From a virus: a DNA stretch of 51,346 nt. The translations under genes and the position numbers were made by a program. This document shows positions 5,551 to 51,307 of this stretch, one piece after another (the first letter of the stretch is position 1; each line of letters starts with the position of its first letter). Where the stretch lies: positions 1 through 51,346 of IMG/VR virus record IMGVR_UViG_3300005515_000005. One strand, given 5' to 3'. The notes beneath the pieces are model-generated. The model saw only the letters and a list, made by a program, of their open reading frames with translations, ran no database searches and was not told the DNA's origin.

Positions 5551-7094
5551 TTCCTGTACTCCTGGACACCGTCAATGTGGCGGCCGATCTTCTGCATCAA
5601 GGCGAGGAGGCAGTCCTCCGTTGGGCGATCCTCCCGGACATAAGAATCCCACGTCCCCTTCCTCTGGAAATGGATGACGATCTTTTTCGGCTCGCGGCCG
5701 AGGAACTCGAACTCGGCAAACGGGCTGAAGACCATGTCGTCCTGCTCTTGCGGACTCAGCGCAGGATCGACGGTGAGATGAATCTCCTTGGCCTCGTCAA
5801 AGCTCATGCCGTCCGACGAAGTCTCCCCCGTGGACTGCCCTGCTGAAACCGCCATCTGCGTGTGTGAGGTGTCGAGTTGTTCCGGATCGATGCCCAGACG
5901 AACTTTGCGGGCCGCCCGTCCGGCGATGCCAAGCTCTCGGATGTCGTTCCGGAGAGAAATGTCCGGAGCATCGGCCTCTTCGGCGCAGAAACCCCACGCA
6001 GCCTGGTCGGCGCCGATCAGATCGATCTTCGTCCGGAGGCCTTCACCTCGAAAGACGCGCATTTCCCATTCGCGGGAGAGCGGAATGCCCGTTTCCATCT
6101 CGTCGACCGCAGCCAGCCATAGCTCGTACCATTCGCGATGCCTCATTGGTCTCAGGCCCGCCGAGGGGAACTCGCGAGCAGCTTGCATCCAGAGGCTGGA
6201 GCTGACGCGCAGATCCTCGCGGTCGTTCCCGCCGACGAAACGCATGTCCTCCGCCGAGTAGACGAGCCGCGACTTGTACCGGCTGGGAGGCGCCAGCTCC
6301 AGTCGGAAGACGATCCTTTCGAGCGGTCGACCGCGGCCGGATCCGACGAATGTGGTCATCGAGAAGTAGAAGGCCCGCACCGCTACGAAGTCCTCGGCGA
6401 GGCCGTTCAGGACGCGCTCTCGGAGCTTTCCGACATGCAGACTTCCGTCGCGCAGCCGCGGAAAGCTGGCCCACGACGCCACCTCCTCTGGCGTCGCTTC
6501 GATGGTCACCGCGTTGTCGCCGCCGGGCTCCCACCGTTTTCCGCTCTCGGAAATGGCGGCAACAAACCGGCGATAAATGCGGGAAGAATACGTAGACGAC
6601 ATCGTTGGCAACGCCGCGAGTTCGACGTAGGCGTATCGCGCCCGATCGCTCATGACCGCGCGGATTGGGTCCGGCAACGAATAGAGCACGGCATCCTCCG
6701 CATCCGTCTTTCGGATCCACGAGTTCAGCAGTGCGACATCCTGGTACTCCTCGTCGCCGACCTTGAACGAAACGAACGTCGACTTCAGTCGGTTGAGCGA
6801 TGACCGGACATGATCGCGCCGGGTATCTTCTCCTAGGTACCGCAGGACGAACGACATGGGGATGGACATCGTCTCCGAGTTCATCGATCGGTCGCCTTCA
6901 TATGCCGCCGAGATCAGGAGCTCGCTCAGGGCAGCATCCTTTGCCGTCAGGTCTGCGCCGCCAGTAACGGTAAGGCTTCCCAGAAGTTCCACAGGCCGCG
7001 GCGACTGCGGTCCAACCTTCGTTAGTTGTTTAGGTGAGCCCAACGCCTTCGAAATGGTTCCCATAGGGTTCGGGTAAAATGCAGTCGCGGTCAT
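5547..7094 (-). CDS. Replication initiator, plasmid Rep (winged-helix, Rep_3-like)
   Basis: The product has 515 residues from the ATG at 7094, which follows AGGAGG with 9-base spacing; an upstream in-frame TTG (7145) lacks a ribosome site. The segment around 135..260 (YAYVELAALPTMSSTYSSRI, then YRRFVAAISESGKRW) has the layout of plasmid initiators, in which paired winged helices bind iterons: a beta hairpin, then a helix with the S-x-x-S-x-R-x-Y pattern. The gene is transcribed away from the repeat cluster at 7147..7374, as expected for Rep and its origin. The C-terminal third is an extension of unknown role. Family placement is by pattern, not alignment. Confidence 0.7.
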   Translation of the reverse strand: MTATAFYPNPMGTISKALGSPKQLTKVGPQSPRPVELLGSLTVTGGADLTAKDAALSELLISAAYEGDRSMNSETMSIPMSFVLRYLGEDTRRDHVRSSLNRLKSTFVSFKVGDEEYQDVALLNSWIRKTDAEDAVLYSLPDPIRAVMSDRARYAYVELAALPTMSSTYSSRIYRRFVAAISESGKRWEPGGDNAVTIEATPEEVASWASFPRLRDGSLHVGKLRERVLNGLAEDFVAVRAFYFSMTTFVGSGRGRPLERIVFRLELAPPSRYKSRLVYSAEDMRFVGGNDREDLRVSSSLWMQAAREFPSAGLRPMRHREWYELWLAAVDEMETGIPLSREWEMRVFRGEGLRTKIDLIGADQAAWGFCAEEADAPDISLRNDIRELGIAGRAARKVRLGIDPEQLDTSHTQMAVSAGQSTGETSSDGMSFDEAKEIHLTVDPALSPQEQDDMVFSPFAEFEFLGREPKKIVIHFQRKGTWDSYVREDRPTEDCLLALMQKIGRHIDGVQEYRK

Positions 7095-13889: not shown

Positions 13890-14321
13890 ATGGCCGACAC
13901 ACTAGATCCAAAATCGAGATCGGAGCGCATGTCCCGCATCCGCGGCAAGGATTCGAAGCCGGAGCTTGTCGTTCGTCGGCTCGTGCACGCTATGGGATTT
14001 CGGTATCGCCTTCATCGAAAAGATCTTCCTGGAACCCCTGATCTCGTTTTTGGTAATCGCAAAAAAGTAATTTTCGTGCACGGTTGCTATTGGCATCGCC
14101 ACGGCGATTCGTCGTGCAAGCTCGCGCGTCTTCCTAAGTCGAGACTTGACTTCTGGTTGCCGAAGCTCGAACGAAACGCCCAACGGGATGCCGAAAACAA
14201 CGCACGTTTGAAGGCGTTGGGGTGGAAGGAGATGGTCGTTTGGGAGTGCCAGGTCAGCAAAGCGAACCTGCCGCATCTCAGCGACCGAATAAGAAAGTTC
14301 CTTTGCGATGAAGTCGATTGA
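13890..14321 (+). CDS. vsr: Very short patch repair endonuclease (Vsr)
   Basis: The product has 143 residues, full length for the family. It nicks 5' of T in T:G mismatches that arise from deamination of 5-methylcytosine. D51 (PGTPDLVF), H64 and H69 (VHGCYWHRH) sit at the numbering of E. coli Vsr; the N-terminal SERMSRIRGKDSKPE is also typical. It overlaps the next gene, a C5 methyltransferase, by 14 bp, so it protects the sites that enzyme methylates. No clear ribosome site precedes the ATG. TTTTGCA lies about 20 bp upstream. Confidence 0.95.
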   Translation: MADTLDPKSRSERMSRIRGKDSKPELVVRRLVHAMGFRYRLHRKDLPGTPDLVFGNRKKVIFVHGCYWHRHGDSSCKLARLPKSRLDFWLPKLERNAQRDAENNARLKALGWKEMVVWECQVSKANLPHLSDRIRKFLCDEVD

Positions 14322-15456
14322 GCTGTTTGCGGGTGCCGGTGGACTTGGACTCGGATTGCACGCAGCAGGATTCAAGCCTGCAAGCGTGATCGAATGGGAC
14401 GACTACTGCGTCGACACAATACGCGAAAACCAGCAGCGTGGCATGCAGGCTGTGAAGGGCTGGAAGGTCAAGCACGGAGACGTCCGCTCCGTCGATTTCA
14501 GTGCCTTTGAGGGAAAGATCGGGCTGGTTTCCGGAGGGCCGCCATGCCAGCCGTTTTCCATGGGCGGGAAGCACGCCGCCTACGACGACCATAGAGACAT
14601 GTTCCCGCAGGCCATCCGCGCTGTGCGGCAAGCTCGACCGCACGCGTTCATTTTCGAGAACGTCAAAGGTCTAACGCGCGCCACGTTCAGAAACTACTTT
14701 GAATACATCCGCCTGCAGCTCGAGCACCCCGAGATCATTAAAGCCGAAGACGAATCCTGGCATGATCACCTCTCTCGGCTCGAGCAGCACCATACCAGCG
14801 GCAGCCGTGAAGGACTCAACTACCGCGTCGTCACGCAACTCTTGAACGCCGCGAACTATGGGATCCCGCAGAAGCGCGAGCGCGTCTTCTTCGTGGGAAT
14901 TCGGGAAGATCTCGGCAAGGCATTCCATTTCCCACATGAGACGCATTCTCGCGAATCCTTGTTGTGGGATCAGGTGCTCGGCGATTATTGGGATCGGCAT
15001 AGGATTGCCAAGAAGGACCGGCCTGAGATTGTCGCGAGCGATCGCATCAGCAAGATGTCGATGCCGGACGAGCTGCCGTGGCGGACGGTAGCCGACGCAC
15101 TCCTCGGCCTCCCGGATCCAGAGAAGAAGACCCCCTCCGACATTATCATCCACAATCATCGCTTCCAGCCTGGTGCCCGCTCGTATCCGGGGCACACTGG
15201 CAGCCCGCTTCACGAGCCAGCAAAGACCCTCAAAGCTGGTGTCCATGGCGTTCCTGGCGGCGAGAATATGCTCCGTCGTCCTGATGGCAGCGTTCGCTAC
15301 TTCACTGTGCGTGAAAGCGCGCGGCTGCAGACGTTCCCCGACAACTATGTCTTCCATGGGTCGTGGACAGAGACGATGCGGCAGCTCGGCAATGCCGTGC
15401 CGGTCGAACTTGCTGCCGTTGTCGGCCGCAGCGTGGCCCAGCAGATCGGAGCCTGA
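14308..15456 (+). CDS. Type II DNA (cytosine-5) methyltransferase
   Basis: The product has 382 residues. Motif I ELFAGAGGLGLGL (5..17), motif IV with catalytic C80 (GGPPCQPFS), motif VI ENVKG, motif VIII QKRERVFFVG, motif IX region EPAKTLKAG and motif X QLGNAVPVELAAVVG are all present. It is the protective partner in a restriction-modification set: vsr before it (14-bp overlap) and a GIY-YIG endonuclease after it (3-base gap). If the endonuclease is Eco29kI-like the target may be close to CCGCGG, but specificity cannot be read from the sequence. Confidence 0.95.
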   Translation: MKSIELFAGAGGLGLGLHAAGFKPASVIEWDDYCVDTIRENQQRGMQAVKGWKVKHGDVRSVDFSAFEGKIGLVSGGPPCQPFSMGGKHAAYDDHRDMFPQAIRAVRQARPHAFIFENVKGLTRATFRNYFEYIRLQLEHPEIIKAEDESWHDHLSRLEQHHTSGSREGLNYRVVTQLLNAANYGIPQKRERVFFVGIREDLGKAFHFPHETHSRESLLWDQVLGDYWDRHRIAKKDRPEIVASDRISKMSMPDELPWRTVADALLGLPDPEKKTPSDIIIHNHRFQPGARSYPGHTGSPLHEPAKTLKAGVHGVPGGENMLRRPDGSVRYFTVRESARLQTFPDNYVFHGSWTETMRQLGNAVPVELAAVVGRSVAQQIGA

Positions 15457-15458
15457 GA

Positions 15459-16232
15459 TTGACGGAAGGTTACGTCGAGTTCGAGTTCGATTTGCCTTCG
15501 GCCCTGCTCCAGAGTCTCGTGAACGAGTTCGCGAAGATGGACTCGGCCTCGCTGACGCACCAGCACACGATGCAGGTGCCGGACGAACAAGGCGTCTATC
15601 AGCTCCTTGTCGGCGGTCAGGTCGTGTATGTCGGCAAAACAGACGCCGACTCCGGCCTCAGGGGACGTTTGTCGAAACACGCGTGGACCATCCAGCATCG
15701 CCAGAACTTGAAGCCCGATGACGTGCAGTTTAAGTGCGCTCGCGTTTTCGTCTTCACGGCGATGGACTTGGAAAAGCTGCTTATCCGGCACTACGCGCAG
15801 ACGGCGGACGTGTGGTGGAACTTCAGCGGCTTTGGATCGAACGACCCCGGCCGCAATCGAGACCAGACCGAACTGAAGGCCGCAGGATTTGACGCCGTCT
15901 ATCCGATCGATCTCGACCATCCCGTTGGCATCAAGACCGATGGTGGCGTTCCGGCGGGGCGGGTTCTGGATGAGCTGCGTTCCGAGTTGCCCTACACCCT
16001 TCGAGCCGAAGGTGACGGCAGCAGAGGTCGCCGGCCGCACCCTGACCTCCTGAACAGCATCGTTGAGCCATTCGTAGTGAAGCCATCGACCACCCGTGAA
16101 GTACTCACCTCGGTATTGAACGTCCTCCCGGAAGGATGGCAGGCTACCGCACTGCCGGGGCGAATTATCATGTACCGAGAAAACAGAAATTACAGCGCGG
16201 GCGTTGTCATCGGGCGTAGCGGCGAGCGCTGA
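15459..16232 (+). CDS. GIY-YIG restriction endonuclease, Eco29kI-like
   Basis: The product has 257 residues from the TTG at 15459, 2 bases after the methyltransferase stop, with GGAG at 15448..15451. The alternative ATG at 15537 would trim the N-terminus. The GIY-YIG core reads GVYQLLVGGQVVYVGK (45..60), R70 and H74 in GRLSKH, a downstream E in MDLEKLLIRHY and N in WWNFSGFGSNDPGR. This last segment is like that of the Eco29kI family of type IIP enzymes. It is somewhat longer than Eco29kI. The downstream gene converges with a 6-base gap. Confidence 0.85.
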   Translation: MTEGYVEFEFDLPSALLQSLVNEFAKMDSASLTHQHTMQVPDEQGVYQLLVGGQVVYVGKTDADSGLRGRLSKHAWTIQHRQNLKPDDVQFKCARVFVFTAMDLEKLLIRHYAQTADVWWNFSGFGSNDPGRNRDQTELKAAGFDAVYPIDLDHPVGIKTDGGVPAGRVLDELRSELPYTLRAEGDGSRGRRPHPDLLNSIVEPFVVKPSTTREVLTSVLNVLPEGWQATALPGRIIMYRENRNYSAGVVIGRSGER

Positions 16233-16238
16233 AACGAC

Positions 16239-16907
16239 CTACTGCGTGACGAGGTCGGAAACGATGTCCATCTCCTCCACCCACGACCGCCATAGGTAAT
16301 CCTTCGTCGCAGGATCCGTCCACTTCATCACATCGGAAGGATGCTTGAAATCAGTGTCCTGGTACCGAACGCGTGCGGCCCTGACCATGGTTAGGGTGTC
16401 GCCGCAGACGTGCGCGCTTGCGTTTCTGCAGGTCTGCAAGTCCTTCAAGGAAGTTACGCCGGCGAAACCGCTGAGCATCGTGCCAGAATTCGTGGGAGCA
16501 AGGCCTGCGACGATCAGATTAGCCTTGCCGACATCACCCCAGGTTGGCTCCTGATGACGGCCTTTCACGGCCTTGATCTTCGTCACGGGCTTCGATTGTG
16601 CAAGGAGTTGCGCAACGTAAGCAATCTCCAGCTCCGAGTTTCCGTTGTAGGCTGGCGAGGACACCGCGACGCCGGCGGTTGTGTTCGCACCCCTCGTCGC
16701 GCCCATGATCGCGTCCCGGCAGAACTCGCACCACGCTTGCCACAGGGAGGAGATCAGGCCCTCCTGTAGAGCGAAGCGGTCGACCGTCTTCGTCACCGAC
16801 GGCGACAGGACGTGGCGCTCGAACGCCTTGTCCAGAGTCGTCACGCGCATCAGGAGCTTGCTGCGGAGTTGATCAAAAGAGATGGGCATATGCCGGGTCT
16901 TGGACAT
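16239..16907 (-). CDS. HEPN-like putative RNase, partner of DUF262 protein
   Basis: The product has 222 residues; the start is ATG 16907 or ATG 16889. It is mostly helical and carries C-R161-N-A-S-A-H166, the R-x4-H signature of HEPN ribonucleases, in the setting LKDLQTCRNASAHVCGD typical of RiboL-PSP-type HEPN domains. The gene overlaps the end of the DUF262 gene by 35 bp. HEPN effectors paired with a sensor are a recurring plan in toxin-antitoxin and abortive-infection systems, so this is probably the effector of a two-gene defence unit. No named system is claimed. Confidence 0.6.
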   Translation of the reverse strand: MSKTRHMPISFDQLRSKLLMRVTTLDKAFERHVLSPSVTKTVDRFALQEGLISSLWQAWCEFCRDAIMGATRGANTTAGVAVSSPAYNGNSELEIAYVAQLLAQSKPVTKIKAVKGRHQEPTWGDVGKANLIVAGLAPTNSGTMLSGFAGVTSLKDLQTCRNASAHVCGDTLTMVRAARVRYQDTDFKHPSDVMKWTDPATKDYLWRSWVEEMDIVSDLVTQ

Positions 16908-17949
16908 CGACGCCGATGGCGCGGAGGATGGACATCGTGCGTGCGTATCTTCTCGGGAGGCGGTTCACTGCGGCCTCGCAGCCCCAGACGTACCTCTCGT
17001 ACGGTCCGTCCACCTCCTTCGCCTCGTGCGCCTGCGCGAGCGCCAGAAGGTTGTTGACCGCCTGGTTACGATCTGCAACGAACCGTCCGTGACTCTGGAT
17101 ATTGTATTCTCCAGTGATCTGGGCGATCCCGAACCGAGAGTGCAGTAGAGCCGTTACAAGCGAGTGGAGAGCGTATGACTTCATCATGTGGGTCTCCCTG
17201 AGATCGCCCAGCTCTCCACCGATGAAGTCAAAGACGCTTTTCAAGTCCGAGTAATAGTTGGCACCGTTTGGGAAATCGTCGTCGTAATGCTTGTAGAGAC
17301 GGGTCAAGTCGGCGGCGCTCGTGCTAATGATTCCGCGTTCCATGGCAAGAACGCTCTCGGAAATCAGTTCGGCGTCGGCCATACGGAGTATCTGCCGATC
17401 CGTGAAGACACCGAACTGCACGAAAAACTCGCTCAGTCCGTCTGACATCTCGTTGACGAACCACTTGAACTGACCCTGATACGTCGAGTGCCGCTTTTCC
17501 GGCTCGTTGAGGGGCAGCGTGTAGGCGTTCATACGCCGGAACATCTGGAGGATTTCTGCTCGCGTAGCATTGCGGATGACGTCCACGCTGACGGCGTAGC
17601 CCATAAAGCGATCCTGATCCTCGTCAGGAAGCTGCGCGAAGGTCATCCCACGGAACCGTGACTCGCCCTTGATCTCGAACTCGTTGTTGAAAAAGCGCCG
17701 GATCGTCGTGATGCGCTGTTGGCCGTCGACTATCTCCTTCCGCATGCGGCGGTCGGGACGGTTGAGGAACTCGTAAAGGTAAATCTTCGGGAACGGGTAG
17801 CCTTCGAGGATCGTATCGATGAAATAAGACGACGGACCATGCGGCCAGAGACCAGTGCCGCGCTGGTACTCGCGGTTCACGATAAGCTCCTTGCGTTCGA
17901 GCATGTCGATGATCTCGGCAACGGAGTAGTTGTTCGTATTGATTTGCAT
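16873..17949 (-). CDS. DUF262 (GmrSD N-terminal/ParB-like) protein
   Basis: The product has 358 residues. N-terminal hallmarks of DUF262 are VNREYQRGTGLW (24..35), F-P-K-I-Y-L-Y-E and the defining DGQQR box (75..79, VDGQQRITTI); downstream come MFRRMNAYTLPLN and EKRHS. DUF262 domains occur in GmrSD-type and other phage-defence nucleases, where the box is linked to nucleotide use. There is no C-terminal HNH (DUF1524) domain. Instead the next gene supplies a HEPN-like protein, so a split system is likely. RBS AAGGATC; 28 bp after the exported-protein gene. Confidence 0.85.
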   Translation of the reverse strand: MQINTNNYSVAEIIDMLERKELIVNREYQRGTGLWPHGPSSYFIDTILEGYPFPKIYLYEFLNRPDRRMRKEIVDGQQRITTIRRFFNNEFEIKGESRFRGMTFAQLPDEDQDRFMGYAVSVDVIRNATRAEILQMFRRMNAYTLPLNEPEKRHSTYQGQFKWFVNEMSDGLSEFFVQFGVFTDRQILRMADAELISESVLAMERGIISTSAADLTRLYKHYDDDFPNGANYYSDLKSVFDFIGGELGDLRETHMMKSYALHSLVTALLHSRFGIAQITGEYNIQSHGRFVADRNQAVNNLLALAQAHEAKEVDGPYERYVWGCEAAVNRLPRRYARTMSILRAIGVDVQDPAYAHLF

Positions 17950-20311: not shown

Positions 20312-20905
20312 TTACGCCGGGAAGAATCGGCCGTCCTCATCTTCACGCGACAAATAAACAAATGAACCTATTGCATATTTTGCGGCCCCCGTTGGCGAGT
20401 TCCCCCGGTGGACGTGTGTCCAAAAAGGCGGAAACAGCACAATCGTACCTCTCTTCGGCGTGATCGAAATTTGATCACGCCAAAACTCTAGTTCACCGCC
20501 TATGACACTGTTGAGATAGAGGATTGCGGTTAGCGTCCGACGGTCCCTGCCTCGCTGTAGACTATCCATGTGCCACACGAACCCCCCGCCGGGTTCTACC
20601 CGCTCTACCCTCGGCTTCGTCCAAATGTGGGGTTCCTTCAGTATCGCCGACAAGCCTGGATGAGCTATCGAAGCCTCTATCGCTGCTTCAGAGAAACGCT
20701 GAGAGATGAACTCTTCAAGCAACTCGCCATTCTTTAGTTGAGATAGCAGTACCACCTCGCCTCGTCGGGCCACCGGATTTGAAGAATTGTAAACATGGCT
20801 TGGGATTCGCTGGTCCATGGCGTCAAATCCGTCGATGATCGTTTGGCATGTAGCCTCATCAACGGCGTCCTCGAACACCCACGTCTCGTTGGCAACCTCC
20901 TTCAT
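20312..20905 (-). CDS. 2-oxoglutarate/Fe(II)-dependent oxygenase (prolyl-hydroxylase-like)
   Basis: The product has 197 residues from the ATG at 20905 (GTG 20911 possible); AAGGGGG precedes. The double-stranded beta-helix motif is seen as WHMD (metal ligands H114 and D116 in the longer numbering), then RTLTAILYLN, GGELEFW, a distal His in FPPFWTHVHRG (H166 or H168) and a 2OG-binding Lys in AAKYAIGSF. It should hydroxylate a protein or small molecule using 2OG and O2. It is divergent from the Tat/MauG pair and may act in the same cargo pathway. The base composition looks AT-richer than the phage genes. Confidence 0.8.
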   Translation of the reverse strand: MKEVANETWVFEDAVDEATCQTIIDGFDAMDQRIPSHVYNSSNPVARRGEVVLLSQLKNGELLEEFISQRFSEAAIEASIAHPGLSAILKEPHIWTKPRVERVEPGGGFVWHMDSLQRGRDRRTLTAILYLNSVIGGELEFWRDQISITPKRGTIVLFPPFWTHVHRGNSPTGAAKYAIGSFVYLSREDEDGRFFPA

Positions 20906-20982
20906 ACTCACCCCCTTGTCGCCCCACTTGCTGTATGAGACTATGCGAATGCACGGATATGTTGCAACAGGGGGGAAAGGTC

Positions 20983-21369
20983 ATGGACAACGAAATTACT
21001 CGTCGTGTACTTCTTTCTACATCGCTTGGAATGATTGCAGCTACAGTTGCAATGCGCGAGGCATCAGCGAAAGTATCGGCAGATGGGCAACGCGTAGACG
21101 TCCTGATCAATATCAAATGGAATGACGGTAAAGGGGTTCAAGGTGCGAGAGTGTTTGATCACATCCCCAACCGCCTGCTCGGAGAAACTAATGCAGCGGG
21201 AGATTTTTTCTTTACGGCGGATTTTGGAACAGTAATTCGCCTAGTTGAGCCAAAGTACGGATTGCAACAATCTCTCTTCAGCGTTGCAGGAGTTCCTCGC
21301 ACAGATAAAAGCGAGGTGCCTGGTTCCAACGCGATGACCTCGAGCTTCGCGGAAGGCTGGACTCTTTAG
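20983..21369 (+). CDS. Tat-type exported beta-sandwich protein, possible MauG substrate
   Basis: The product has 128 residues from the ATG at 20983 after GGGGGGAAAGG. The N-terminus has a twin arginine (EITRRVLLSTSLGMIAAT) and an ASA-like cleavage site near 30. The mature domain (VDVLINIKWNDGKGVQGARV, then LLGETNAAGDFFF) resembles carboxypeptidase-regulatory/MetallophosN-like beta sandwiches. Only two Trp remain, one internal (KWND) and one in the last residues (EGWTL). Its stop is 4 bp before the MauG-like gene, so it may be the partner that enzyme oxidises, but this is inference. Confidence 0.65.
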   Translation: MDNEITRRVLLSTSLGMIAATVAMREASAKVSADGQRVDVLINIKWNDGKGVQGARVFDHIPNRLLGETNAAGDFFFTADFGTVIRLVEPKYGLQQSLFSVAGVPRTDKSEVPGSNAMTSSFAEGWTL

Positions 21370-21373
21370 GCTG

Positions 21374-22279
21374 ATGCCTAACCTCTACGTCTGCTTATTC
21401 CTATCTGCCATTGCTTTCTGGAGTTCACAGGCATCGGCCTCCGATGCCTGCAACCCCGCCGCATTGGGCAAACATCTGTTCTCAGATCGAAAAATCTCAC
21501 TAAACGCGGTGTCGTGCAGCAGTTGTCACCGCCCTGAAATGAGCTACCAAGACGGTGAGGAGCGTCCTCTAGGTAGGGCCGGATTAGTTCTCCCGCGCAA
21601 TACACCAAGCCTGCAACACATTCTCCTTTATAAGAGCTATGGTTGGGATGGTCGGAACCCGAAACTTTCAGACCAGATTAGGGAAGTCCTACTTGCGCCG
21701 ACAGAAATTAACCTATCGGCGGAAGCCCTAAGGCTTTCGATTTCTGACGTTTGCCCTGGCACGCTAAATGGACGCCAACATGACGATGCTCTCGCGTTGG
21801 CAGTCACCGCGCTTGCCGAATACGTCGAAGGGGTCGCATCATTCTCCAAGCCATGGGCAGAGCAGAATTTGTCTTCAAATCTTCTCCGCGGCTATCAAAT
21901 TTTCAAGCGCACCGGTTGCGCCGCTTGCCATCCCGCACCTACCTTCACTGACGGCGGTTTTCACGATATTGGGCTTGAGCGCCGGCGTATACTGCCGCAA
22001 TCGTCAGGCCTAACGTCCCAGGGACAAACCTTTACCCTTGGCATAGATTACGGCCGCGGCAATGTTGTCTCTGGCAACAATGCTGTTTACGCGTTCAGGA
22101 CACCAACACTTCTTGATGTAAACCAGACCGGACCCTTCATGCATGACGGTCGATTTCATTCGCTTCGCGAGGTAATTGACTTTTTCCGGAGGCAAGAAGC
22201 GTTCAGCGTTACAGAGGAAGAGCAACAGCTCTTAATCGAGTTCATTTCAAGCCTTTCATCGAGAGGTGGGGGCCCCTGA
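21374..22279 (+). CDS. MauG-like dihaem cytochrome c peroxidase family protein
   Basis: The product has 301 residues. A signal peptide ends near SQASA (22). Two haem-binding CxxCH motifs lie at C48-SS-C51-H52 and C182-AA-C185-H186, the spacing of dihaem bacterial cytochrome c peroxidases and MauG. The C-terminal R-T-P-T-L-L-D...GPFMHDGRF is a family landmark. Members reduce H2O2 or carry out long-range oxidation of Trp residues in partner proteins in the periplasm. It is translated right after a small Tat-type protein. This is an unusual cargo for a prophage. The long plain coding stretch shows no frameshift. Confidence 0.88.
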   Translation: MPNLYVCLFLSAIAFWSSQASASDACNPAALGKHLFSDRKISLNAVSCSSCHRPEMSYQDGEERPLGRAGLVLPRNTPSLQHILLYKSYGWDGRNPKLSDQIREVLLAPTEINLSAEALRLSISDVCPGTLNGRQHDDALALAVTALAEYVEGVASFSKPWAEQNLSSNLLRGYQIFKRTGCAACHPAPTFTDGGFHDIGLERRRILPQSSGLTSQGQTFTLGIDYGRGNVVSGNNAVYAFRTPTLLDVNQTGPFMHDGRFHSLREVIDFFRRQEAFSVTEEEQQLLIEFISSLSSRGGGP

Positions 22280-22433: not shown

Positions 22434-23051
22434 ATGCCGAGACGCAAAATCACGCCGCCGACGGTGCTGAATCCCGAGGACGGATTCGATGGATCGGCCA
22501 CACCCCACCTTGAGGATTCATCACCCCCTCTTACGAAGAGGGAAGCGGCGAAAGCGCGGCACGTTTCGCTGAAGACGGCAGCCGCGATGCTGAACCGCGA
22601 TCGCAACACCGTCATGAAATGGCTCGACCAGGGATGCCCGTTCGTCGAGCGCGGCGACAAAGATCGCGGGATCTCGTGGACATTGGACCTCGCGGACGTC
22701 GTGAAGTGGCTCGAAGAGCGCGCCGCGAAGAACGTGGCCGATCGGATGGGCGGTATCGAGGGCCAGGTCTCGGAGGACGAGGCGAAAAGGCGCATCGCCG
22801 TCGCCAAGATGATCACCGAGGAGACCGAAGCCGCCGAGGCGGTCAAGATGGTGGCTCGCGTGCACGAAATGCTGTCGATCATCAAGAAGGACTACGCCGA
22901 GCTGCGCTCCCGCCTCATGGGTGTACCCGACGCCCTTGCGGCGAAAGTGGACGCGAAGATGCGAGATCGTGTCCGGAAGGCGTCGGAGGACCTCATCCGC
23001 AACGCGCTGTCCTCCCTTTCCGCGGACAAGGGCACGGAAAATCAGGGGTAA
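22434..23051 (+). CDS. Terminase small subunit (lambda Nu1-like)
   Basis: The product has 205 residues from the ATG at 22434 after GGAG with 8-base spacing. The region LTKREAAKARHVSLKTAAAM ... NTVMKWLDQGCPFVERGD (about 33..75) is the winged-helix DNA-binding domain of Nu1-like subunits. A long helical C-terminal half mediates assembly with the large subunit. It recognises cos/pac on phage DNA. It is the first gene of the head module, 3 bp before the large subunit. Confidence 0.85.
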   Translation: MPRRKITPPTVLNPEDGFDGSATPHLEDSSPPLTKREAAKARHVSLKTAAAMLNRDRNTVMKWLDQGCPFVERGDKDRGISWTLDLADVVKWLEERAAKNVADRMGGIEGQVSEDEAKRRIAVAKMITEETEAAEAVKMVARVHEMLSIIKKDYAELRSRLMGVPDALAAKVDAKMRDRVRKASEDLIRNALSSLSADKGTENQG

Positions 23052-23054
23052 GGC

Positions 23055-25229
23055 ATGCCTTTCGCCATTCCCGCGGACCAGACCGCCCCTCAGCAGCTCC
23101 TTGGACACCTCAATTTCGAGGAAGGGCTCGCCGAATTCTCGCGGGAGATCGAGCGTTACAAGCGCGACTATCTCGAATGGCCGGAGTTCGAGGACGCCGT
23201 CACGTGGATTTTCAACAATATCGAGCTTCCGAAGAGCGAGACCAGTCGCCCCGGCAAGATGAAGCTGACCGTCTACCAGCGCGAGATGGCCATCAACATC
23301 ACGAATCCTAAGTGCAAGCAGCTCACGATCCTGAAAGCCGTCCAGATCGGCTACTCGAAGGCCCTGAAGGCCATCTATGCCTACGTCGTGGGCTATCTTG
23401 CGAAGCGCTGCGCGGTCGCGTTTCCGACCAAGGACACAATCAAGCGCTTCTGGAAGGACGAGATCGTCGACATGTACCGGAGCGTCCGCGCGCTTCAGGA
23501 GCTTATCCGCGACGCCGAGAAGGGTACGGCCTCCGACACGATGGCCGAGCAGCGCTTCATCAACGGCGCTATTGGGTACTTCCGGTCGGCGTTCAACGAA
23601 GACGACCTCCAGTCCTTCACGTCCGAAATCAACATGGCGGACGAGGTCGACCGCGAAGGGTGGCAGCCGCGTGCAGGAACGGCCGGCAACAAGCTTAATC
23701 AGTTCCGTAACCGCGGCACGGATTTCGAGCAGTCCAAGCTCCTCGTTGGCAGCACCCCAGGCGTCCGTCACCAGTCGGTCATCTGGCAAGAATGGCTGAT
23801 GTCCGACCAACGCCGACTGCGGGTAAACTGCCCCCACTGCGGCGAGGAGCAGGTGCTGCGCTGGGGTAACAAGGACTCGCGGTTCGGCTTCAAGTACACC
23901 TGCAACGAGGCCGGACAAGTTGTTAACGTGTTCTATCGTTGCGACAGCGCCAAGCAGTGCCGCATCGTCCAGGACGACCGTGACGATATGGTCGATGCCG
24001 GGCGTTACGTGGCCACCGAAACAGCGAAGACTCCAGGCAACATCGGCATCCACATCCCTGCTTGGATTTCGCCGTCGCCCGGAGCCGACTGGCTAGGCAT
24101 CGCCCAGCGCTGGGTCAACGCCCAAGGTGACACCGAACGCATGAAGGAATTCGTGTGCTTCTGGATGGCGGAGCCGTGGGATGAGTTCGACAGCCGGACA
24201 CTCAGCGACACGGGGCTGGCGGCGAACCGCCGTCCATATCCTGCCGAGGTCCCGGACGACGTCATTGCCATCGTCGCCGGCGGTGACGACCAGACCAACA
24301 AGGAAGGCGACGGGTTTTTCATCCAGGCGTCTCGTGAAATTCAGATTGTCGGCTTCAATAGGCGTTCCGAGCCTCGTGTGATCGGGCACTGGGTAATCAA
24401 GGGCGAAGTCGGTGACCCCGAGGCCGACGCCGAATACCGCGCAATCCTTGACCGTCCTTACCGCAACCGACGCGGACAGGAGTTCTACGTGCAGGCCGAG
24501 GCGATGGACGGCGGTGGTCACCATCCCGACGCCACATGCCGTTTCGCGGCTTCGTTTCCCAAAAACCGTCTCATCATCGCGATCCGCGGAGCAAGTCCCG
24601 CGAAGGGTACGAGGCTGCCCGCCATGCTGCCGGAAAAGGCCACGAAGTCCGCCAAGGGCAACTGGTTCTGGACAGTGGATACTCAACGCGCCCGCGACCT
24701 TGCCGCTTCGAAGCTTGTGCTGGTCGGCGACTCCGCGCCCATGTGGCCGTCGTCGATGCCAGAGGGCTTCGAGGAGAAGATGACGAGCGAACATCAGGAA
24801 CTTCAGAAGAACGGCGGTTACTGGTGGACCGAGAAGCCTGGACGCAGGTCCGAGGAGGAATGGATGTGCTTCTCCTACGCCTTTGTCGCGTGGGAACTGC
24901 TCCGGAGCAAGCGGCCAAGACGTTGGGGCAACTTGAATCTTGCAGCGGAGCGCCTCGGAATACCGGATATCAGCCACGACCCCGACACGGGGGAACTCGA
25001 CTACGATGGTCCGGACATGTCCGTGATGGCAGTCGAAGCCCGCGCCAAGGCCGAGGCCGAACCGAAGCCATTGGCTCCTGTCGTCGTGCGGCAGCCGAAG
25101 GGTCGGGAACAGAAGCCCGCGCCGACCATGCAGCCCGTGATGCCGACCCCGGTTCCGGCGGCACCGGCCGTGGTGCAGCAGCAACCTCGTCGGGCGGCAC
25201 GCATCGTCCGATCGAGTTCAATCTGGTGA
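23055..25229 (+). CDS. Terminase large subunit (lambda GpA family)
   Basis: The product has 724 residues. It is the ATPase and nuclease that packages and cuts DNA. The N-terminal ATPase shows LTILKAVQIGYSKALKAIYA (about 90..109), the deviant Walker A of GpA proteins. A zinc-ribbon-like NCPHCGEEQVLRW ... YRCDSAKQC lies near 257..303 and the nuclease region near 400 (IVAGGDDQTN). The C-terminal 70 residues are a low-complexity Pro/Ala/Lys tail (EAEPKPLAPVVVRQP...). GpA-type terminases go with lambda-like head genes, which follow here. Confidence 0.95.
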   Translation: MPFAIPADQTAPQQLLGHLNFEEGLAEFSREIERYKRDYLEWPEFEDAVTWIFNNIELPKSETSRPGKMKLTVYQREMAINITNPKCKQLTILKAVQIGYSKALKAIYAYVVGYLAKRCAVAFPTKDTIKRFWKDEIVDMYRSVRALQELIRDAEKGTASDTMAEQRFINGAIGYFRSAFNEDDLQSFTSEINMADEVDREGWQPRAGTAGNKLNQFRNRGTDFEQSKLLVGSTPGVRHQSVIWQEWLMSDQRRLRVNCPHCGEEQVLRWGNKDSRFGFKYTCNEAGQVVNVFYRCDSAKQCRIVQDDRDDMVDAGRYVATETAKTPGNIGIHIPAWISPSPGADWLGIAQRWVNAQGDTERMKEFVCFWMAEPWDEFDSRTLSDTGLAANRRPYPAEVPDDVIAIVAGGDDQTNKEGDGFFIQASREIQIVGFNRRSEPRVIGHWVIKGEVGDPEADAEYRAILDRPYRNRRGQEFYVQAEAMDGGGHHPDATCRFAASFPKNRLIIAIRGASPAKGTRLPAMLPEKATKSAKGNWFWTVDTQRARDLAASKLVLVGDSAPMWPSSMPEGFEEKMTSEHQELQKNGGYWWTEKPGRRSEEEWMCFSYAFVAWELLRSKRPRRWGNLNLAAERLGIPDISHDPDTGELDYDGPDMSVMAVEARAKAEAEPKPLAPVVVRQPKGREQKPAPTMQPVMPTPVPAAPAVVQQQPRRAARIVRSSSIW

Positions 25230-41403: not shown

Positions 41404-43263
41404 ATGACCACGACGTTTGAACTGCACTCGGAATCCGTGCGGAAGTATCGAGCAGAAGGCCGCTCCTTCGCCAAGATTGCCGCCGCACTCGGCATCAGTT
41501 GCACCCAGACAAAGCGAATCGTCGCTCGCATCCTCGAAGAGACGCCCGCTCCAGAGGTGGAGTCTCCGAAACCCCTCAAGAAATTCCCAAAGCTGACAGA
41601 AGACGATATCCGGGAACGCATCGCGACCGATGAGCTTGTCGTCCCATTCAGCAACTGGCTCGGAGACGGCTGGGTTCGTGAAGCTGGCGAGCCACAGGAA
41701 ATCTACGAGACCGACCAGGATGGTGAGCAGCAGCTCGTAGGTATGAAGATTGACCCCGGCGTGCTCTGGCCGGACGATTGGAATGGGCCGAAGACAGTTG
41801 ACGACGTTTGGATCCACCCGAACGTACCGGCGCCTCGGCGCAGCGTGAAGCACGGCACCATCGTCACGATGCACCAAGCTTTGACGCCCGCGCATGGACC
41901 CTTCGTGGTCAACCTCCATGCTCTTGCGAAGGCTCTCGGTGGCTACGACATCAAGATCGGCGGAGCGACATACGGAAAAAATCTCTTCGTCGAGAAGCGG
42001 CGCAGGGATCTTCTCGAGATTGCGCCCTGGTCGAGCATGATCTCTCACCTTGTGTCGCGCAGTCGCATCGATCTCGGGCCGAACGTGCAGGCGTGTTTCG
42101 AGATGAACATGAGGCCGACAAAGGCCAATCCTCTCACCGGGATGAACACCTACATCCGTGGCAAGACGTCGATCTTCGCTCATCCAAAGCGTGCCGTCGT
42201 ATCGGTTCCCCGTCCTCGGTTCCACGGTCCTGTTACGATGTGGACCACCGGTGCGTGCACGGTCCCGAATTACATCGAACAAGAAGCCGGGCTGAAAGGG
42301 CTGCAGCGGCACACTATCGGCGCCGTCATCGTTGAAGTCGACACCGAGGATCGCGTCTTCATCCGGAACATCGACGCGGAACCGGAGACTGGAAACATCC
42401 GCGACCTCGATCTCGTCGTTTCGTACGGAAACGTTTACACGATCGATGATGCCATCCGCGTGTCCGACGGCGATGTCGACCGACCCTTCCTTGGCATTCC
42501 TTGCACCCATCGTGCAGGCATTTATCCACCCTACGCTCGGGCGATGTGGGGCTACGGTGGTAACCCCGAGGGCGACCGTCCGCTCATCGACCTAGTCCGC
42601 GCGAAGGGCCAGGCGTTCAACGACTTGTTCGACGGTCAAGCAATCAATCATCACGAGGATCGCAATCCTATCGCTATGTATCATCGACATGCGCAGCGGC
42701 GGCAATTCGTTGAACCGGAGATCGACCAAGCCGCCAACTTCCTGACCGAGACGTCTCGCCCCTGGTGCAAGTCCTACATCGTCTATTCCAACCACGACGA
42801 CTTCCTAGCCAGGTGGCTTCAACGGCCGTCGACCGAGGTATCCGTCGAGAATTCCAAGCTGTGGCACCTCGCGAACTACGAGTGGCGGGCTGCCATCGAT
42901 CGCGGTGGACGGTTCGATATTTTCGACTGGTTGATCCGCCGTTCGAATCCCTCGGCCGACTTCGAGCTCGTGAATGCAGACAAGCCGCTCGAAGTCTACG
43001 GCACCTACTACAACTTCCACGGCGATGTCGGCGCGAATGGAGCACGTGGCTCCACAGCCGGGCTGGCAAAGCTCGGGATCAAGATCTCCAAGGCGCACGA
43101 TCATGGCCTCGGATGGACCGACGACTGCATTTCCATGGGAAACCTGATCCACAGCGCGCCCTACGCCAAGGGCCCAACAGGATGGGTCGGTGCATGGCAT
43201 CTTGGCCATTCAGACGGCAACCGCCAGGTAGGGCTTCTCGTCGGCGACAAGTACCGCGCTTAA
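41404..43263 (+). CDS. Large metallophosphoesterase with N-terminal HTH, T5 A1-like
   Basis: The product has 619 residues from the ATG at 41404 after GGGAG; an upstream frame to 41272 has no ribosome site. The N-terminus (about 10..42, VRKYRAEGRSFAKIAAALGI) is a helix-turn-helix. The C-terminal half has phosphoesterase motifs: NHHED (about 414), SNHDD (about 460), HGDVGANG (about 538) and AHDHG (about 564). The arrangement recalls the phage T5 A1 protein, tied to host DNA breakdown; that link is from memory and by motif. It probably acts on DNA. The palindromic promoter region suggests repression in the lysogen. Its stop overlaps the stop of the Abi gene. Confidence 0.7.
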   Translation: MTTTFELHSESVRKYRAEGRSFAKIAAALGISCTQTKRIVARILEETPAPEVESPKPLKKFPKLTEDDIRERIATDELVVPFSNWLGDGWVREAGEPQEIYETDQDGEQQLVGMKIDPGVLWPDDWNGPKTVDDVWIHPNVPAPRRSVKHGTIVTMHQALTPAHGPFVVNLHALAKALGGYDIKIGGATYGKNLFVEKRRRDLLEIAPWSSMISHLVSRSRIDLGPNVQACFEMNMRPTKANPLTGMNTYIRGKTSIFAHPKRAVVSVPRPRFHGPVTMWTTGACTVPNYIEQEAGLKGLQRHTIGAVIVEVDTEDRVFIRNIDAEPETGNIRDLDLVVSYGNVYTIDDAIRVSDGDVDRPFLGIPCTHRAGIYPPYARAMWGYGGNPEGDRPLIDLVRAKGQAFNDLFDGQAINHHEDRNPIAMYHRHAQRRQFVEPEIDQAANFLTETSRPWCKSYIVYSNHDDFLARWLQRPSTEVSVENSKLWHLANYEWRAAIDRGGRFDIFDWLIRRSNPSADFELVNADKPLEVYGTYYNFHGDVGANGARGSTAGLAKLGIKISKAHDHGLGWTDDCISMGNLIHSAPYAKGPTGWVGAWHLGHSDGNRQVGLLVGDKYRA

Positions 43264-44453
43264 TCGGATCCCGCAGGCTGCTCCGCCTTTCTCGCGTTCC
43301 AGGTATCGACGAGGAAGGTGGCCATCGTGCCCGAGAGATTTACAGCGAGCTGTGCGTGCCGCGGAGCCGGACGCACCCGCCGCGGGCCGCGACTATGCGC
43401 ATCCGATATCCGGTTGCGCAGCGACCCCAGGGACTCTACGACCGACTGGCAACTGCCAAGGATTTGCTTGAATACAGTCTCGGTGTGGTCGTCCGGTGCT
43501 AGCTTCAGTATCTTCGCCAGCTTCTTGTAGAGAACGGGGAGATCGTCTTTCTCTTCGTATTCCTCGCCGGCTTCAACGATGATCCACTTACAGACGTCTT
43601 CCAACAACGTCCTTGCGAGCGTGATCGCTCCTTCCGGATTTGTGTCACGGCGGTCAAGTGCTTGCGTCCACCTAGCGTGGATCGTGTCGGCATCGTATGC
43701 GGCAAGCGCCTCTGAGATGGCAGCGTCGGCGGGGCTTCCTACCACGGCCGCTTGCACTTGATAGACTGGGCTGCCGGACATTCGTCTCACGATGGTCAAC
43801 CGGTAGCCGTCGTGTCGCAGGTGATCAGAGATAGCTGCGGCCAGTTCAGCTTGTCCTTCCGCAGACTGGGCCAGCGGACTCGTCACTTCCTCGAGAAAAC
43901 GAAAGAACTGTCGCTGCGAGCACGTGAGCGTGCCCACTTTTTCTAAGATCTCCCTGTTGCTCCAATCATCGTTGCGCACCGTCGCTTGGATCAGATCGTC
44001 TTCCAGCGTCCTACCCGTATCGTACTCCGAAAAAATCGACTGCATCTGGTAGATCGGCCAGACTCGCCGCAGGAAGTCCATGTGATCGTCCTCGGTACTG
44101 ATCGGCCGATTATCGAACAGCGCAACGATCCGTTTCCGGGTGAGTTCGGAAACAGTCGCTCGACCGCACTCCTCCATTTTCGACTTGGCATCCAGAAGAG
44201 AGTAACTGTCGACCTCCTCCAGAAGTCGGGTCGCTAGTGGAATGAGGTCAGCAGCAGATTTCTCCAGGAGACGTCGTTCAGCGTATTTGAATTTGGACTT
44301 GAACGACTCCTCACGGTCGCCTTCGCGAAGACCCAGCCGGGCACAAAGATTAGGCACTTCATTGGCCGAGAAGTCAGAAATTACCGATGCAAGCTCTGAT
44401 CGGAGCGCCCTAACGAGGCCCACAGGATACGATTCTGAAGAGGACTGCTGCAC
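43260..44453 (-). CDS. Abortive infection family protein (Abi-C domain)
   Basis: The product has 397 residues. The C-terminal third (GAITLARTLLEDVCKWIIVE, DLPVLYKKLAKILKLAP, GSCQSVVESLGSLRNRISD-AH, RPAPRHAQLAVNLSGTMATF) is a very clear match to the abortive-infection C-terminal domain. R-N-R-I-S-D-A-H has the R-x6-H spacing allowed for HEPN-type RNases. The N-terminus is a helical AbiJ-like sensor region, with no transmembrane part. It would let the lysogen kill itself or stop growth on infection by other phages. It is monocistronic, on the reverse strand, and shares its terminal TTAA with the upstream phage gene. Confidence 0.85.
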   Translation of the reverse strand: MQQSSSESYPVGLVRALRSELASVISDFSANEVPNLCARLGLREGDREESFKSKFKYAERRLLEKSAADLIPLATRLLEEVDSYSLLDAKSKMEECGRATVSELTRKRIVALFDNRPISTEDDHMDFLRRVWPIYQMQSIFSEYDTGRTLEDDLIQATVRNDDWSNREILEKVGTLTCSQRQFFRFLEEVTSPLAQSAEGQAELAAAISDHLRHDGYRLTIVRRMSGSPVYQVQAAVVGSPADAAISEALAAYDADTIHARWTQALDRRDTNPEGAITLARTLLEDVCKWIIVEAGEEYEEKDDLPVLYKKLAKILKLAPDDHTETVFKQILGSCQSVVESLGSLRNRISDAHSRGPRRVRPAPRHAQLAVNLSGTMATFLVDTWNARKAEQPAGSD

Positions 44454-44579: not shown

Positions 44580-44831
44580 ATGGCAGCCAGATACATCCCT
44601 CAGAAATTCAAATGTGCGACAGCTCACGAGATCGAACAAGCTCTCGGAACGGCGGCCCTCGCGCGGATCAAGCAACTGGGATTGCAGGCGCAAGAAATCG
44701 CCGAGACCTACCCGACAATCAGGCTTGGACATCTCCGCAAGCTCGAGAATGGTGAACAGCTCGGCTTTCGGATGACGGCCGCGCTGCTGGAGGCGACAGG
44801 CCTCCAGGTCGAGTTCGCGGTGACCGCATGA
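44580..44831 (+). CDS. Small HTH-like protein at head of lysis operon
   Basis: The product has 83 residues from the ATG at 44580 after GGAGA. The sequence IRLGHLRKLENGEQLGFRMT and AALLEATGLQVEF resembles the recognition-helix half of XRE-type regulators, though the first half is not canonical. The inverted repeat just upstream could be its own operator. Its stop overlaps the endolysin start. Confidence 0.5.
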   Translation: MAARYIPQKFKCATAHEIEQALGTAALARIKQLGLQAQEIAETYPTIRLGHLRKLENGEQLGFRMTAALLEATGLQVEFAVTA

Positions 44832-45637
44832 AGGCCACATATGCGCGCGCCATGAAACAGATCCGCTTGTTTGAAGGCGGCTACGTAAACCATCGACGCG
44901 ATCCGGGAGGAGCTACAAATTTCGGCGTCACGCAGGCCGTCTATGACGAGTATCGCTCCTCCAAAAGGATGCCGAAACAGACCATCCGCCTGATCACCGA
45001 AACCGAAGTCAACGATATCTATCTTACTAAGTACGCTGACAAGATCCGGTACGACGAACTTCCCGCCGGCATCGATTTCGCGACGCTGGACGGAGCCGTA
45101 AACAGCGGCGTCTCCCGCGGAGCGAAGTGGCTCCAGACGGCCCTCGGAATATCCGCCGACGGCGTTGTAGGGGTGAAAACCGTTGCAGCAGCCACGGCAG
45201 CCGACGCTCTGGAGACCATCAAGACCCTTTATGCCAGGCGCACCGGGTTCCTCCGGGGCCTGTCGACTTTCTCCACATTTGGAAAGGGGTGGCTCTTGCG
45301 CTGCGCCACGGGCGAGGCAGTCGCCACGAGGCTGCAGTTGGAGCATCGCGGGATCTCTGCGAAATCTCTGCCTATTGCGCTTCAGACCGAAGCCGACAAC
45401 GCAGCCGCCAGCAACAGCTCGGCGTCGTCGGCCGCAAAAGGAATTGGCGCAGGCGCCGCGGGATCCACGACAGCAACGGCGGCCGAGTGGTCGAATCTTG
45501 CAGGGCTCGAGAGCATCCTTCTCGTAGGGGCCACCATCGGACTTGTCGTGCTGGCCGCCTATCTGATCCACCGCAGCCGCGTCCACAGGGAGCGCGCCGC
45601 TGCCTACGCCGCGGTTGCGGCAGGAGCCTTCGCATGA
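44828..45637 (+). CDS. Endolysin, GH108 muramidase with C-terminal membrane helix
   Basis: The product has 269 residues. FE16GGYVNH and DPGGATNFGVT (25..35) are the catalytic Glu and landmark of glycosyl hydrolase 108 N-acetylmuramidases; the peptidoglycan-binding segment ISADGVVGVKTVAAATAADA follows near 108. A low-complexity linker (NNSSASSAAKG region) leads to a membrane helix (about 227..247, LESILLVGATIGLVVLAAYL) and a basic tail. It cuts glycan strands. A C-terminal anchor is unusual for an endolysin and may restrain it until the holin acts. It is the first gene of a lysis cassette. Confidence 0.88.
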   Translation: MKATYARAMKQIRLFEGGYVNHRRDPGGATNFGVTQAVYDEYRSSKRMPKQTIRLITETEVNDIYLTKYADKIRYDELPAGIDFATLDGAVNSGVSRGAKWLQTALGISADGVVGVKTVAAATAADALETIKTLYARRTGFLRGLSTFSTFGKGWLLRCATGEAVATRLQLEHRGISAKSLPIALQTEADNAAASNSSASSAAKGIGAGAAGSTTATAAEWSNLAGLESILLVGATIGLVVLAAYLIHRSRVHRERAAAYAAVAAGAFA

Positions 45638-51226: not shown

Positions 51227-51275
51227 GAAATGGTACGGTTGGTGGGAATCGAACCTACGACCTCAGGTGCCACAA
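51227..51275. repeat. attR: attR core: 49-bp direct repeat within tRNA-His
   Basis: Identical to 65..113. Beyond 51275 the sequence continues into the 5' half of the intact tRNA-His, whereas at attL it diverges. The element between the two cores is 51,162 bp counting one core copy. Confidence 0.95.
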
Positions 51276-51307
51276 ACCTGCGCTCTAACCAACTGAGCTA
51301 CAACCGC
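51231..51307 (-). tRNA. tRNA-His (GTG), restored by the prophage
   Basis: Read on the minus strand: acceptor GCGGTTG/CAACCGT, D arm GCTC/GAGC, anticodon stem CAGGT/ACCTG with loop TTGTGGC (anticodon GTG), T arm GTAGG-TTCGATT-CCCAC, A73 and encoded CCA. G1:U72 and A73 with no pairing partner for an encoded G-1 is the form known for many alphaproteobacterial tRNA-His. Integration kept the gene functional by supplying an identical 3' half. Confidence 0.97.

Follow-up and report, generated by a model that had tools for sequence, protein, structure and literature searches.

Just ahead of its terminase genes, a complete prophage was found to carry a block of three genes, the last of which encodes a divergent enzyme of the di-haem CCP/MauG superfamily with a phenylalanine, Phe271, in the place where the second haem normally has its distal ligand. 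The superfamily itself is a known one, and what is notable in this member is the phage setting and the lost haem ligand. The reading that we favor, with a probability of roughly 0.4, is that of a periplasmic, H2O2-using oxidase that would act on, or together with, the small exported protein encoded immediately upstream.

The prophage and its three-gene cassette

The window, by which we mean the whole stretch of DNA analyzed, is the entire IMG/VR record IMGVR_UViG_3300005515_000005 (51,346 nt), and all of it corresponds to one complete integrated prophage. The prophage status proposed in the initial annotation is borne out by the att repeats found at a tRNA-His gene and by the phage genes, among them portal, head and tail genes in addition to those given below. 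The host is a soil-type alphaproteobacterium, and the prophage is of the Hyphomicrobiales type. All three genes of the cassette, spanning 20312-22279, are present where they had been annotated.

65-113: att direct repeat, left copy, 49 bp
345-1871: integrase
20312-20911, minus strand: 2OG-Fe(II) oxygenase, 199 aa (PF13640, phrog_61), divergent from the pair
20983-21369, plus strand: orphan exported protein, 128 aa, with a Tat-type signal read by eye
21374-22279, plus strand: divergent di-haem CCP/MauG-superfamily enzyme, 301 aa (PF03150), with a Sec-type signal read by eye
22434-25229: terminase
44828-45637: endolysin
51227-51275: att direct repeat, right copy, 49 bp, overlapping the end of the tRNA-His gene
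51231-51307: tRNA-His, at the end of the record, with one end covered by the att repeat

Relatives of the large terminase were found in one viral contig (53% identity) and in three Hyphomicrobiales genomes (45-53%). In all four of them (L001-L004) the stretch ahead of the small terminase gene (TerS) is made of different genes, so the cassette appears to occupy a variable site. Elsewhere, the prophage carries a restriction locus (13890-16232) composed of a Vsr endonuclease, a cytosine methyltransferase and an Eco29kI-like endonuclease, a GmrSD_N/NsnA-like gene overlapping a 222-aa ORF without an assigned family (16239-17949), the two of which perhaps constitute a two-gene defence system, and an AbiJ-type abortive infection gene that adjoins the endolysin (43260-44453).

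The three genes of the cassette stand apart in their composition. Their GC3 values (0.57 for the 2OG oxygenase, 0.44 for the exported protein gene and 0.53 for the di-haem gene) compare with 0.70 on average (sd 0.065) in 35 other genes of the prophage, and they are the three neighbours with the lowest GC3, a result reached in 165 of 20,000 shuffles of the gene order. Since the low GC3 is common to all three, they look like a single imported block, and this shared composition supports the view that they entered together as foreign cargo. Neither the common low GC3 nor Phe271 (see below) figures in the initial annotation. The earlier proposal of imported cargo in a prophage is thus sustained by the low-GC3 triple and by the variable site before TerS. 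No repeats flanking the cassette were found, and the search for a sigma-70-like promoter between 20100 and 22600 was also negative, which means little in this bacterial group.

The assignment of the first gene as a 2OG oxygenase proved correct: PF13640 is matched with 49.8 bits, for a cut-off of 27 (E 7e-13), and phrog_61 with an E of 1e-25, and the HxD...H metal triad can be read as HMD followed, further on, by HVH. A tblastn search with this protein reached 434 phage records, mostly Synechococcus phages, the best of them at approximately 30% identity. In viral contigs no close relative was found. Judged by these matches, its relatives are ordinary cyanophage 2OG genes, of a sort common in phages, and therefore what ties the oxygenase to the neighbouring pair is composition and position only. 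Compared with the cyanophage-type 2OG-Fe(II) oxygenases of phrog_61, the cassette gene has the same domain and the same phage location, but it adjoins a di-haem gene and keeps only that low identity. The idea that it might further modify the exported protein is entirely speculative.

The di-haem enzyme and its second haem

The third gene had been annotated as a MauG-like enzyme. Its placement in the CCP/MauG superfamily stands, given its match to PF03150 (86.7 bits for a cut-off of 25.6, E 3e-24) and its two CXXCH motifs, whereas an assignment to MauG or MbnH proper does not, as the scores fall well below the curated cut-offs: 137.6 bits versus 443.85 for TIGR03791, the MauG equivalog and best curated model, and 105.5 bits versus 362.85 for TIGR04039, the MbnH family. 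The residues on which the argument depends are the following.

21515-21529, plus strand: first haem site, CSSCH, residues 48-52 (peroxidatic haem by homology)
21917-21931, plus strand: second haem site, CAACH, residues 182-186 (electron-transfer haem by homology)
22184-22186, plus strand: codon TTC for Phe271, which takes the place of the second haem's distal ligand, 17 residues after Pro254

The Cys, Cys and His residues of both haem motifs are invariant in 149 relatives. In the Neisseria gonorrhoeae BCCP, the peroxidatic haem is served by His59, the bridging Trp98, Gln108 and Glu118, calcium is bound by Asn83, Thr261 and Pro263, and Met280, located 17 residues after Pro263, ligates the electron-transfer haem (PMC10094543). 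The first four correspond in the cassette enzyme to His52, Trp91, Gln101 and Glu111, and the calcium ligands to Asn76, Thr252 and Pro254, with identical spacings between the Asn, His, Trp, Gln and Glu residues of both proteins; by this correspondence, the peroxidatic haem site is intact. The distal-His loop of the classical peroxidases (IGHGW) reads LGRAG in the alignments, so that an open first haem, like that of MauG-type enzymes, is to be expected.

The situation differs at the second haem. The position of Phe271 is occupied in the 149 relatives by Tyr (132 proteins), Met (13), His (2), Arg (1) and Phe (1). An axial Tyr at the second haem is conserved in all MauGs, while peroxidases have Met or His instead (PMC7567364). 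The residues equivalent to Phe271 are Tyr294 in MauG and the Met ligand in classical BCCP. Phe cannot bind iron, and thus the second haem of the cassette enzyme must be five-coordinate or otherwise ligated. The Tyr ligand is needed for the high-valent state of MauG, and the replacement of Tyr or Met by Phe implies that the redox behaviour of this haem must differ from that of MauG, MbnH and the classical peroxidases. A sequencing frameshift was discarded as the source of Phe271, since the frame is in register with the relatives on both sides; a single-base error could still lie behind it, the sequence being known from one record. Phe occupies this position in just one other relative, encoded in a genome of the order Hyphomicrobiales (L158:2669-3736). 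As the clade to which that protein belongs is well supported and made up of Tyr-type enzymes, the Phe of L158 probably arose separately, by a loss of its own.

The comparison with MauG (TIGR03791), which forms TTQ, reveals two c-type haems, the fold family, the open first haem, the bridging Trp and the active-site Gln and Glu as common traits. The cassette enzyme differs in its Phe271 and in its shorter C-terminus, and also in its genomic setting: MauG is found with the mau genes and its preMADH substrate, while here the enzyme is flanked by phage genes on both sides. One of the other loci sampled (L098) does carry a mau cluster, unlike the prophage cassette.

Classical BCCPs provide the highest-scoring solved structures, with the best matches, bacterial cytochrome c peroxidases, extending over residues 24-297, and they have in common with the cassette enzyme the calcium-site and active-site residues and a short loop after the ligand helix. 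These matches, the C-terminal loop that is as short after the ligand position as in peroxidases, and the existence of Met-ligand peroxidases in other viral contigs (see below) would agree with a stand-alone periplasmic peroxidase that removes H2O2 for the lysogen, with the exported protein as its donor, its helper or an unrelated piece of cargo. We regard this alternative as rather unlikely, because the haem through which electrons enter normally has His/Met ligation and here faces a Phe, the classical peroxidatic distal-His loop is missing, and the exported protein has none of the residues with which an electron donor would typically bind a cofactor.

The enzyme is also extremely divergent. 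None of the relatives sampled exceeds approximately 36-38% identity to it, and its end branch, of 3.45 changes per column, is the second longest in a tree where its placement is unsure. Beside the active site, Val105 is found where Pro is usual (this would be Pro107 in MauG numbering, which we take to be the equivalent position), and the near-invariant His82, Leu247 and Gln274 have been lost. Such divergence fits relaxed constraint as well, and to that extent counts against an oxidase acting on a partner. Together with Phe271, these losses and the long branch could denote an imported di-haem gene that, under relaxed selection, is decaying or changing its function. However, the 301-aa frame, the signal peptide, both haem motifs, the Trp, Gln and Glu residues and the calcium site are all intact. 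Decay at random should hardly have left precisely these features untouched, which makes this explanation unlikely.

The exported protein and its relation to the enzyme

The gene for the exported protein is preceded by a good ribosome-binding stretch (GGGGGGAAAGG, before the ATG at 20983), and, as noted at the outset, only 4 bases (GCTG) separate its TAG from the ATG of the co-directional di-haem gene. Gaps of 4 bp are ordinary in phage operons and, taken alone, say nothing on interaction. Both products carry export signals, as judged by eye.

20998-21006, plus strand: codons of the twin-arginine motif (T-R-R of TRRVLLS), read from the sequence
21118-21120, plus strand: Trp46, approximately residue 17 of the mature part
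21358-21360, plus strand: Trp126, third residue from the C-terminus

The Tat-type signal described earlier can indeed be recognized on reading the sequence, with TRRVLLS followed by a hydrophobic stretch and an ASA cleavage site. The mature part would then have about 99 residues and a pI of 5.7, with two Trp, one Tyr, one His, one Met and no Cys, and the only Trp residues are W46 and W126 of 128, the latter close to the C-terminus, in agreement with the initial annotation. With so few of the usual ligands (a single His, a single Met and no Cys), the protein is unlikely to form an ordinary metal site, and the suggestion of a metal-binding cargo loses ground accordingly. As for the proposed beta-sandwich, the structural model consists mostly of strands, which gives the idea weak support, but its mean pLDDT is 45 and no Pfam match accompanies it. 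Foldseek returned insignificant matches only, many of them Ig-like or beta-sandwich, and it was not used for identification because of the poor quality of the models (mean pLDDT 46 for the di-haem enzyme). The stretch GVQGARVFD...GETNAAGDFFF resembles transthyretin-like or carboxypeptidase-regulatory-like strands, a resemblance that is a lead only.

The protein behaves as an orphan in all the collections searched. There was no match in Pfam even at an E of 10, none in NCBIfam, PADLOC or the PDB sequences, and only one at chance level in PHROG. No homologue was detected by tblastn in phages and plasmids, in 397 order-level and 298 family-level genomes (~695), by scanning viral and genome contigs for peptide patterns, which finds close relatives only, or by phmmer among the ORFs that neighbour MauG-like genes (~100 of them bacterial and 18 viral). 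Two candidates were rejected: L020, also a protein with a Tat signal, matches in that signal and nowhere else, while the weak match of L160 is centred on it as well.

These results affect the analogy with MbnH/MbnP on which the earlier proposal was built. The cassette resembles that system in the superfamily of the enzyme and in the position of its gene beside that of a small exported protein. Nevertheless, the analogy fails: the enzyme scores below the MbnH cut-off and has Phe where MbnH has a Tyr ligand, the partner, with one His and no Cys, has no match to MbnP, or to any other family, in Pfam or NCBIfam, and the cassette has no copper or methanobactin context. Lack of conservation of the pair had been named beforehand as evidence against it, and no second occurrence of the two genes together turned up among phages and plasmids, in viral contigs, in the genome collection (by a pattern scan that finds close relatives only), in the ~695 order- and family-level genomes or next to the ~100 bacterial MauG-like genes. 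This absence does not amount to disproof, as a singleton cannot disprove a pair.

The order of the genes, both haem sites, the peroxidatic residues that remain, the loss of the ligand, the foreign composition common to the three genes and the prophage setting can be seen in the sequence itself. What we infer for the favored oxidase and its exported partner are the export routes, the use of H2O2 and the relation between both proteins, as follows. A prophage of the Hyphomicrobiales type, integrated at a tRNA-His gene, would have acquired a foreign cargo (moron) block ahead of its terminase genes. The enzyme would be exported via Sec and would receive its two c-type haems from the host maturation system; H2O2 would be used at the open first (peroxidatic) haem, and a protein substrate would then receive the oxidizing power, whether directly or by way of Trp91 and the second haem. 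The most likely substrate would be the protein encoded immediately before the enzyme, which Tat would export already folded, and the modification might affect either Trp residue or the single Tyr. Oxidation of Trp, as originally put forward, is by analogy a possible special case of this mechanism, one that finds no support in conservation of the pair and is weakened by Phe271, which removes the ligand common to MauG-type enzymes. In its most ambitious form, the proposal would define a new subtype of phage di-haem oxidase, with a second haem devoid of Tyr, Met or His ligand, which modifies a dedicated Tat-exported partner in the course of lysogenic conversion, a version we consider quite doubtful. 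Finally, that the exported protein alters the surface or blocks superinfection by rival phages, with the redox enzyme maturing it, is improbable, for the presence of other defence genes in the prophage (the Eco29kI-like restriction locus, the GmrSD/NsnA-like gene and the AbiJ gene) is offset by the failure of both proteins to match any defence model, the lack of a receptor-like feature and a cassette composition unlike that of the defence genes.

Di-haem enzymes in other viral sequences

Two scans of viral contigs for the enzyme family returned 9 and 18 loci, with overlap between them. In four contigs, a subtilase (S8) gene (PF00082, E 6e-40 to 1e-57) lies directly upstream of a MauG-like di-haem gene, at the positions below, and the MauG-like proteins of the four form one clade (95% SH-aLRT).

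L088:3866-5852, subtilase and MauG-like operon
L092:3710-5870, subtilase and MauG-like operon
L093:3681-5843, subtilase and MauG-like operon
L103:4898-6927, subtilase and MauG-like operon

In L092, L093 and L103 a further ORF of 240-295 aa follows, with a membrane-anchor-like stretch at its start, and the arrangement looks like a recurrent phage operon. These loci resemble the cassette in that a phage-borne di-haem enzyme of the superfamily shares an apparent operon with another gene. In contrast, their partner is an S8 peptidase located upstream, they have their own clade, they lack the exported orphan, and they keep the Tyr ligand (read in L088, L092 and L093) where the cassette enzyme has Phe271. 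Other viral contigs (L106, L112, L115 and L117, approximately bases 5830-6830 of each) encode lipoprotein-like di-haem peroxidases, in three of which the Met ligand was read, with the same motif in L117, and a 597-aa exported di-haem protein is found in L107 (5716-7509), downstream of endolysin-like and GIY-YIG-like genes.

No description of viral contigs repeatedly carrying MauG-superfamily enzymes, the subtilase-linked operon included, was found in the literature searched, and this recurrence, in particular that of the subtilase and MauG-like pair, is perhaps more worthy of study than the cassette, which is a singleton. To our knowledge, only a few substrates are known for the radical chemistry of the MauG superfamily on protein side chains. 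If our reading is true, phages carry and reshape enzymes of this superfamily, and the Phe271 enzyme would be a natural test of the purpose of the axial ligand at the second haem.
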